The position numbers and the translations under genes were made by a program. Below, piece by piece: positions 6,889 through 15,968 of a stretch of DNA of 61,380 bases. The notes under the pieces are model-generated. The model worked only from the letters and a program-made list of their open reading frames with translations, was not told the origin of the DNA and ran no database searches. This DNA is from Gemmatimonadota bacterium (GTDB lineage: Bacteria > Gemmatimonadota > Gemmatimonadetes > Longimicrobiales > Gaopeijiaceae), in contig JAQBXY010000021.1 in assembly GCA_027623325.1 (NCBI GenBank), forward strand, positions 1 through 61,380, written 5' to 3'. Every line of letters begins with the position of its first letter. The stretch's first letter is position 1.

Positions 6889-6901
6889 CACTTTGCCCGA
6901 G

Positions 6902-6974
<73 letters not shown>

Positions 6975-14793: not shown

Positions 14794-15894
14794 TCATCGC
14801 GTGGCGCCGTAGATCTCGGTCTGCGGAAAGGTCAACGAGAAGCCGTACCAGCGGGTGAAGACTTGGAGTGGCCGATCGCCTCGCACGCGGTTGTCCGAGC
14901 GATCGTACAGTAGGCTGCTAGCCACGTACGACCCGTCGGACAACCGCAGCACGTCGTCATCCCATTGCGGCGTGTCCCCGTCGACATAGACGGCTGCCAG
15001 TACGAAGGTCTTCGGGTCGAGGTAAATGAGCACGCGTTTGCCGTCGAAGGTATCGACGAGGGCGCGACCCTCTTCGCGGACGACGTCGTGCGGGTAGTAC
15101 CGTGCCCCTGCGTCCGACCACACCCCGATCCCGATGTCCATCGTGGGACGTCGATCGTCTTCCTGTTTGACCGTGGAGCTGAACATGCCATTCAGTCGGC
15201 CACGGATCCCCGCCAGCAGCCCTTCGACCTTCATCTGGTCGTCGGTCCGAATCGCTTGTGTCGACAGAGCGACCATCGCGTCCGGATCCGTCTCGAGCAC
15301 CTGTTCGACGGTCGTCTGACGCAGACTCGACACCGTCAGCGAAGTCCCGACGAGCGGGCCATACACGGCTCGCCCGGTCATATGATCCCAGTAGGTGCCG
15401 GTCTCCTCGTCCTTCATTAGGAAGAGCCCGTCGTACAAACCGTGTTCGGAGAAGAGGTGAACGTCGCCTTCGATGCGTGGAGCCATCCTGACCCCTGAAT
15501 TACAGATCACTCAGAAGGTGACCATCCACGGTTCTCCCGCCATGTCACCCTGCGCAACGTGGTGATACGACATCTGACTCGAAACCAACGCGAGTGTCTG
15601 TCCACCCGCCTCGAAGACGATGACCGGCGTATCGTCGGCAACCTCACGGGCCCGACGCACGGCTCGAAGCGGCCGCCATTCCGGGTCGCGAAGCGGTACG
15701 AAGTTCGGTTCGGCCCAAAAGAGCGCCCGCTCGGTGTCGAAGCCCTCCGCGACTGGCATGGAAGGATCGACCGGAACCTGCGTGAAGCGCTCCGTTCGCG
15801 CCTGCCCCTCGACGCCGCTGGCCGCTGCGACCAGTATCGCGAGGGCCAGCGTCGTGCCCGCGGTCCTGCCGATGGGTAGGGGATCTCGAATCAA
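14794..15894 (-). CDS. DUF3179 protein with in-frame UGA at a signature Cys (candidate selenoprotein)
   Basis: One continuous frame of 366 codons, interrupted only by TGA at codon 128 (15511-15513). Start is TTG at 15894, preceded by CGGGAG, and followed by a signal peptide ending about V-E-G-Q-A. Upstream of the TGA is the DUF3179 segment S-Y-H-H-V-A-Q-G-D-M-A-G-E-P-W-M-V-T-F. Downstream is V-I-C-N-S-G-V, then Y-D-G-L-F and T-G-T-Y-W-D-H-M-T-G-R-A-V-Y-G-P-L-V-G-T. Family members normally have V-T-Y/F-C-x-x-C-N/G-S-G, so the TGA replaces the first Cys and would give U128-x-x-C131. A stem-loop follows (15479-15495). The alternative is a recent nonsense mutation of TGC or TGT. The protein is predicted to be exported; its function is unknown. 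Confidence 0.72.
15479..15495 (-). promoter_or_regulatory. Candidate bacterial SECIS stem-loop
   Basis: On the minus strand, GGGGUC (15495-15490) pairs fully with GGCUCC (15484-15479), 6 bp with two G-U pairs, around the loop AGGAU. The loop starts 21 bases after the UGA and has G as its second base. As I recall the published bacterial SECIS model, it needs a loop of 3-14 bases, a stem of 4-16 bp, a G in the first two loop positions and a spacing of 16-37 bases; all are met. Such short hairpins can arise by chance. Confidence 0.5.
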
Positions 15895-15968
15895 GGAAAC
15901 ACTCCCGTGGCATGAGGATCTGTAAGCCGTTCGATCCCATAATACGTGGGACCCCTCGTGAGATCCAA

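Follow-up and report, generated by a model that had tools for sequence, protein, structure and literature searches.

The minus strand of the window, by which we mean the entire 61,380-nucleotide stretch of Gemmatimonadota DNA analyzed here, carries a gene whose frame runs through an internal UGA and whose read-through product matches the Pfam DUF3179 profile with an E-value of 5.9e-26 (92 bits; gathering score 27). The source genome contains no other DUF3179 match. A GGGAG sequence at 15902–15906, seven bases upstream of the TTG at 15894, together with the hydrophobic leader that would follow, points to that TTG as the probable start (Table 1). The neighboring genes code for a short-chain dehydrogenase, a class IV aminotransferase, a uracil-DNA glycosylase and a Na/H exchanger with TrkA domains, none with an evident link to the DUF3179 gene. 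Elsewhere in the window, a tRNA-Lys (CTT) lies at 6901–6974 on the minus strand. Among the flanking open reading frames of the relatives, no true neighbor recurs beyond three close relatives; the largest clusters of such frames we take to be shadow frames of the DUF3179 gene itself. An AlphaFold prediction for the window protein with two relatives (pLDDT 45.4, pTM 0.35) was set aside, and nothing credible emerged when solved structures were searched with a profile.

Table 1. Features of the DUF3179 gene and of its putative SECIS element, in window positions
Feature	Position	Strand	Basis or comment
Predicted DUF3179 selenoprotein gene, UGA read through, 366 aa	14794..15894	-	Pfam PF11376; single frame; TTG start probable; terminal TGA 14796-14794
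Probable signal peptide, residues 1-32, MIRDPLPIGRTAGTTLALAILVAAASGVEGQA	15799..15894	-	predicted from the sequence alone; similar leaders in relatives
Probable selenocysteine UGA codon, residue 128	15511..15513	-	column is Cys in 35 Cys homologues; UGA in 36/36 clade members
Second Cys (TGT) of the UxxC motif	15502..15504	-	invariant in the 24-row alignment
Putative SECIS stem, 5' arm GGGGUC	15490..15495	-	sequence, covariation, fold
Putative SECIS apical loop AGGAU	15485..15489	-	second-place G and fifth-place U invariant, 36/36
Putative SECIS stem, 3' arm GGCUCC	15479..15484	-	sequence, covariation, fold

From the UGA onward, the minus strand (15513–15479) reads TGA GTG ATC TGT AAT TCA GGG GTC AGG ATG GCT CC. 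The first-pass annotation of this DNA had described a SECIS-like hairpin here, and each element of that description is borne out: the two arms form six pairs, two of them G-U, around the loop; the loop lies 21 bases from the UGA and has G as its second base; the structure lies within the coding sequence, the UGA being inside one frame; and the UGA stands in place of a signature cysteine, namely the first of the DUF3179 CxxC, giving a U-V-I-C motif in the window protein. ViennaRNA recovers the same stem in the window segment with an additional A-U pair within the loop that leaves GGA unpaired, so that the geometry may be counted either as a 6-bp stem with a 5-nt loop at a spacing of 21 nt or as 7 bp with a 3-nt loop at 22 nt. 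The bare stem-loop has an energy of -7.1 kcal/mol, and the 42-nt segment, which includes a second helix, one of -11.4 kcal/mol. The annotation had also cautioned that a stem this short is weak evidence taken singly, and we concur: the fold of the 42-nt segment is ordinary (z-score -1.15), with 25 of 200 shuffled sequences folding equally well. The window contains 1635 TGA trinucleotides when both strands are counted; 124 are followed within the permitted range by a G-loop hairpin of the same or better energy, and 12 by the strict motif (6 bp around N1-G-[GU]-N-N2). The evidence from the single sequence is thus weak, and the element becomes convincing because the stem is kept in 35 of the 36 members of the clade described below.

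To delineate this clade we searched 154 genomes of the order with a protein query, which gave matches in 70, and 395 genomes of the phylum, a set overlapping that of the order, with a profile, which gave matches in 93. The set kept comprises 36 distinct members from 30 Gemmatimonadota genomes, namely 24 genes from 19 genomes of the order and 12 genes from 11 further genomes of the class. Genes retrieved in duplicate (one copy of each being kept), a partial match (L055) and five fragments without a row at the UGA column (L039, L040, L086, L087 and L090) were left out, and five UGA-containing genes of a second type (L057, L059, L091, L093 and L095) were counted apart. For comparison we assembled 35 distant DUF3179 genes with cysteine at the motif position, having dropped one aligned row with CAG (the second match in L113). 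The nearest named relatives are Longimicrobiales metagenome-assembled genomes within Gemmatimonadota, and the window protein shares 40–70% identity with the 23 other clade members aligned to it, all with open frames downstream of the UGA. The clade is marked by the motif G-E-P-W-M-V-(T/S)-F-U-x-x-C-N-(S/T)-G.

The codon at the motif position is TGA in all 36 clade members as against TGC or TGT in all 35 distant homologues. Every clade match with E < 1e-100 in the profile search of the 395 genomes contains at least one internal TGA, and neither that search nor the protein search of the 154 genomes revealed a cysteine form of the close clade. Given that the sequence comes from a draft assembly of 60 contigs, the UGA might in principle have arisen by nonsense mutation or misassembly, or be the stop of a pseudogene. 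However, UGA occurs at the same codon in every one of the 36 members across 30 genomes, and their frames remain open to nearly the same C-terminus, the ends nearly coinciding across the 24 aligned members. These observations refute such an origin, to which we accord practically no probability.

The source genome encodes the complete selenocysteine machinery: a tRNA-Sec (selC) with a TCA anticodon (70.8 bits), selA (533.8 bits, cut-off 267.9), selB (323.7 bits, cut-off 242.25) and selD (381.8 bits, cut-off 125). The selD frame (L114; G000:C8:257912-258832) has an in-frame UGA of its own, in the context SHGAG-U-ACKLG, which we take to fall at the catalytic cysteine and after which stable hairpins follow; selD is a probable second selenoprotein gene of this genome. 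The reading-through of UGA in both the DUF3179 gene and selD would also be expected if UGA had been reassigned genome-wide, for instance to tryptophan, glycine or cysteine, with the hairpin being irrelevant. However, the DUF3179 gene itself terminates at UGA, and the genome has the tRNA-Sec with its TCA anticodon, SelA and SelB. Moreover, the full six-pair stem follows none of the terminal TGAs in the 16 of the 36 clade genes that end in UGA and have enough following sequence. Hence, we consider a reassignment exceedingly improbable.

Beyond the source genome, a tRNA-Sec (E < 1e-11) is present in 27 of the 30 clade genomes (16 of the 19 in the order and all 11 outside it); it was not found in G101, G054 and G060, which are 83, 76 and 81% complete, respectively. 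By a hand tally at the same E-value cut-off, which was our own choice, 100 of the 154 genomes of the order possess a tRNA-Sec, and the DUF3179 gene is present in 16 of these 100 as compared to 3 of the 54 without one (one-sided Fisher p = 0.047). This co-occurrence is only marginal because many users of selenocysteine lack the gene and, taken singly, it is weak evidence.

With offsets counted from the U of UGA (offset 0), the six stem pairs are complete at identical offsets in all but one of the clade members, the sole exception being L081, which has A-A at 21:31 and retains the UGA and the loop. The pairs 18:34 and 19:33 are G-C in all 36 genes. At 20:32, G-U is found in 18 genes, G-C in 9, A-U in 6 and C-G in 3; at 21:31, G-C in 30 and A-U in 5; at 22:30, U-A in 25, U-G in 9 and C-G in 2; and at 23:29, C-G in 35 and G-C in 1. 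Thus, four of the six stem pairs show changes on both sides, one of them mostly linking silent third codon positions. The loop conforms to N-G-[GU]-N-U throughout the 36, with the second-place G being invariant and the third base either G or U; L029 has U-U as its N1-N2 pair.

The comparison of this segment across homologues for compensatory changes, which had been suggested as a check, accordingly finds them. In the first 24 genes, 99.4% of the alignment cells are paired and four of the seven counted pairs show two-sided changes. The covariation score of 0.396 for these genes exceeds that of all 500 shuffles (mean 0.225), and slid registers attain at most 0.112 as against the true register. 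RNAalifold, unaided, recovers the same helix. A protein tree built from the 36 members has 17 of its 33 inner branches well supported. Parsimony on it places 27 changes in the four pairs that vary; pairing is preserved in 26 of these, and in the printed reconstruction 9 of the 26 alter both sides. The counts are approximate because the tree is resolved only in part.

Alternatively, the hairpin might arise incidentally from the coding of the conserved peptide C-N-(S/T)-G-V-x-(M/L)-(A/T)-P, without any role as RNA. The peptide is indeed well conserved, the fold of the single sequence is unexceptional as noted above, and synonymous recoding with the codon use of each gene gives a six-bp stem in approximately 20% of cases (mean over 24 genes). 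However, that expectation per gene falls far short of the observed near-universality of the stem. Further, at 20:32 the third base of the glycine codon pairs with that of codon +10 in 36 of 36 genes, the positions being mostly silent on both sides. Codon +10 specifies threonine or alanine in 30 of the 36 clade genes, and T-ending codons, which are rare for these residues, account for 23 of these 30 as compared to 147 of 2030 threonine and alanine codons elsewhere in the same genes. The residues at codons +7 and +10 likewise shift jointly, preserving the 21:31 pair. Since the covariation is present, the by-product account is already refuted, and we regard it as very improbable.

The homologues with cysteine provide a further control, namely whether they have the hairpin equally often. 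At the clade offsets the stem is found in none of the 35, a comparison that is not fully fair because these homologues are only distant and differ in the peptide that follows the motif; the recoding null above and a free scan for the motif are fairer controls. In the latter, the strict 6-bp motif anywhere between 16 and 37 nt occurs in none of the 35 cysteine genes as against 34 of the 36 with UGA. The contrast becomes softer when hairpin energy is the sole measure: a threshold of -7.5 kcal/mol is passed by 27 of the 36, with the window gene among the 9 that fail, as compared to 8 of the 35 cysteine genes.

UGA-containing DUF3179 genes show some additional diversity. In L082 (G171:C23) two such genes lie in tandem. 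L091, L093 and L095 make up a second group with the motif VAT[FY]-U-TLCHTGLVWER, hydrophobic N-terminal segments and the hairpin CCACACC-ggtct-GGTGTGG downstream of the UGA; two of their three genomes have a tRNA-Sec, G321 being the one where none was found. L057 (G054) has the motif VTW-U-PLCGTG, and L059 (G060) has VGW-U-PLARLS, which is devoid of the second cysteine; no clear tRNA-Sec was seen in either genome.

Because the stem has been kept by matching two-sided changes in dozens of relatives, we conclude that the hairpin is very probably a bacterial SECIS element and that the UGA specifies selenocysteine in a probably exported DUF3179 protein. In the mechanism that we envisage, the hairpin in the mRNA, 21 nt past the UGA, would bind the C-terminal domain of SelB, which would carry the selenocysteine-charged tRNA-Sec to the ribosome at that codon, and the UGA would be decoded as selenocysteine rather than as a stop. 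The predicted product is a DUF3179 protein, likely exported, with selenocysteine at the first motif cysteine. Its U-x-x-C site would most likely constitute a thiol/selenol redox center or a metal-binding center. Going further, one may propose that this Gemmatimonadota subfamily is strictly dependent on selenocysteine and that upkeep of the SECIS stem forced the linked residue changes at codons +7 and +10 (from V...A/T to I...V/I), a combined proposition on which we are evenly divided.

An annotation that reads the UGA as a stop would split the gene into two fragments. For Gemmatimonadota the analysis supplies a covariation-tested candidate SECIS, and within DUF3179, a family of unknown function, it marks the motif cysteine as a probable catalytic center. 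As a clade in which no cysteine form was seen, it also offers a natural setting for asking why cysteine cannot replace selenocysteine.

Among known systems, the SECIS of Escherichia coli fdhF is a stem-loop situated just past the UGA, with a G and a U of the loop being contacted by SelB. The window hairpin resembles it in placement and in having G and U in its loop, but its upper stem lacks a bulged U and its stem sequence differs. The bacterial SECIS model, as set out in the legend to Fig. 2 of PMC13188914, specifies a loop of 3–9 nt, a stem of 4–16 bp, a spacing of 16–37 nt, a G at the first or second loop position (mostly N1-G-[G|U]-N-N2) and an energy of at most -7.5 kcal/mol. Set against this model, of the bSECISearch type, the window hairpin agrees in position, stem, loop, placement of the G, the N1-G-[G|U]-N-N2 pattern and spacing, with its bare-stem energy being just short of the limit. 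The word Gemmatimonad is absent from the available portion of PMC13188914, and the literature searched, in the parts available, yielded no description of a Gemmatimonadota selenoproteome; within those bounds, and as far as the searches show, there is no earlier description of the clade or of its covarying SECIS. The available portions of PMC9312934 and PMC13188914 tabulate DUF3179 with UxxC/T as a selenoprotein family, which the former credits to Zhang and Gladyshev 2007, and the listed examples include MBW1804167.1 and MDJ0986319.1. Relative to these entries as available, the window clade differs in being from Gemmatimonadota, with no cysteine form found, and shares with them the Pfam family and the placement of selenocysteine at the first motif cysteine (UxxC). 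Since DUF3179 is already tabulated as a selenoprotein family, the kind is known, and the clade is therefore an added member of it.
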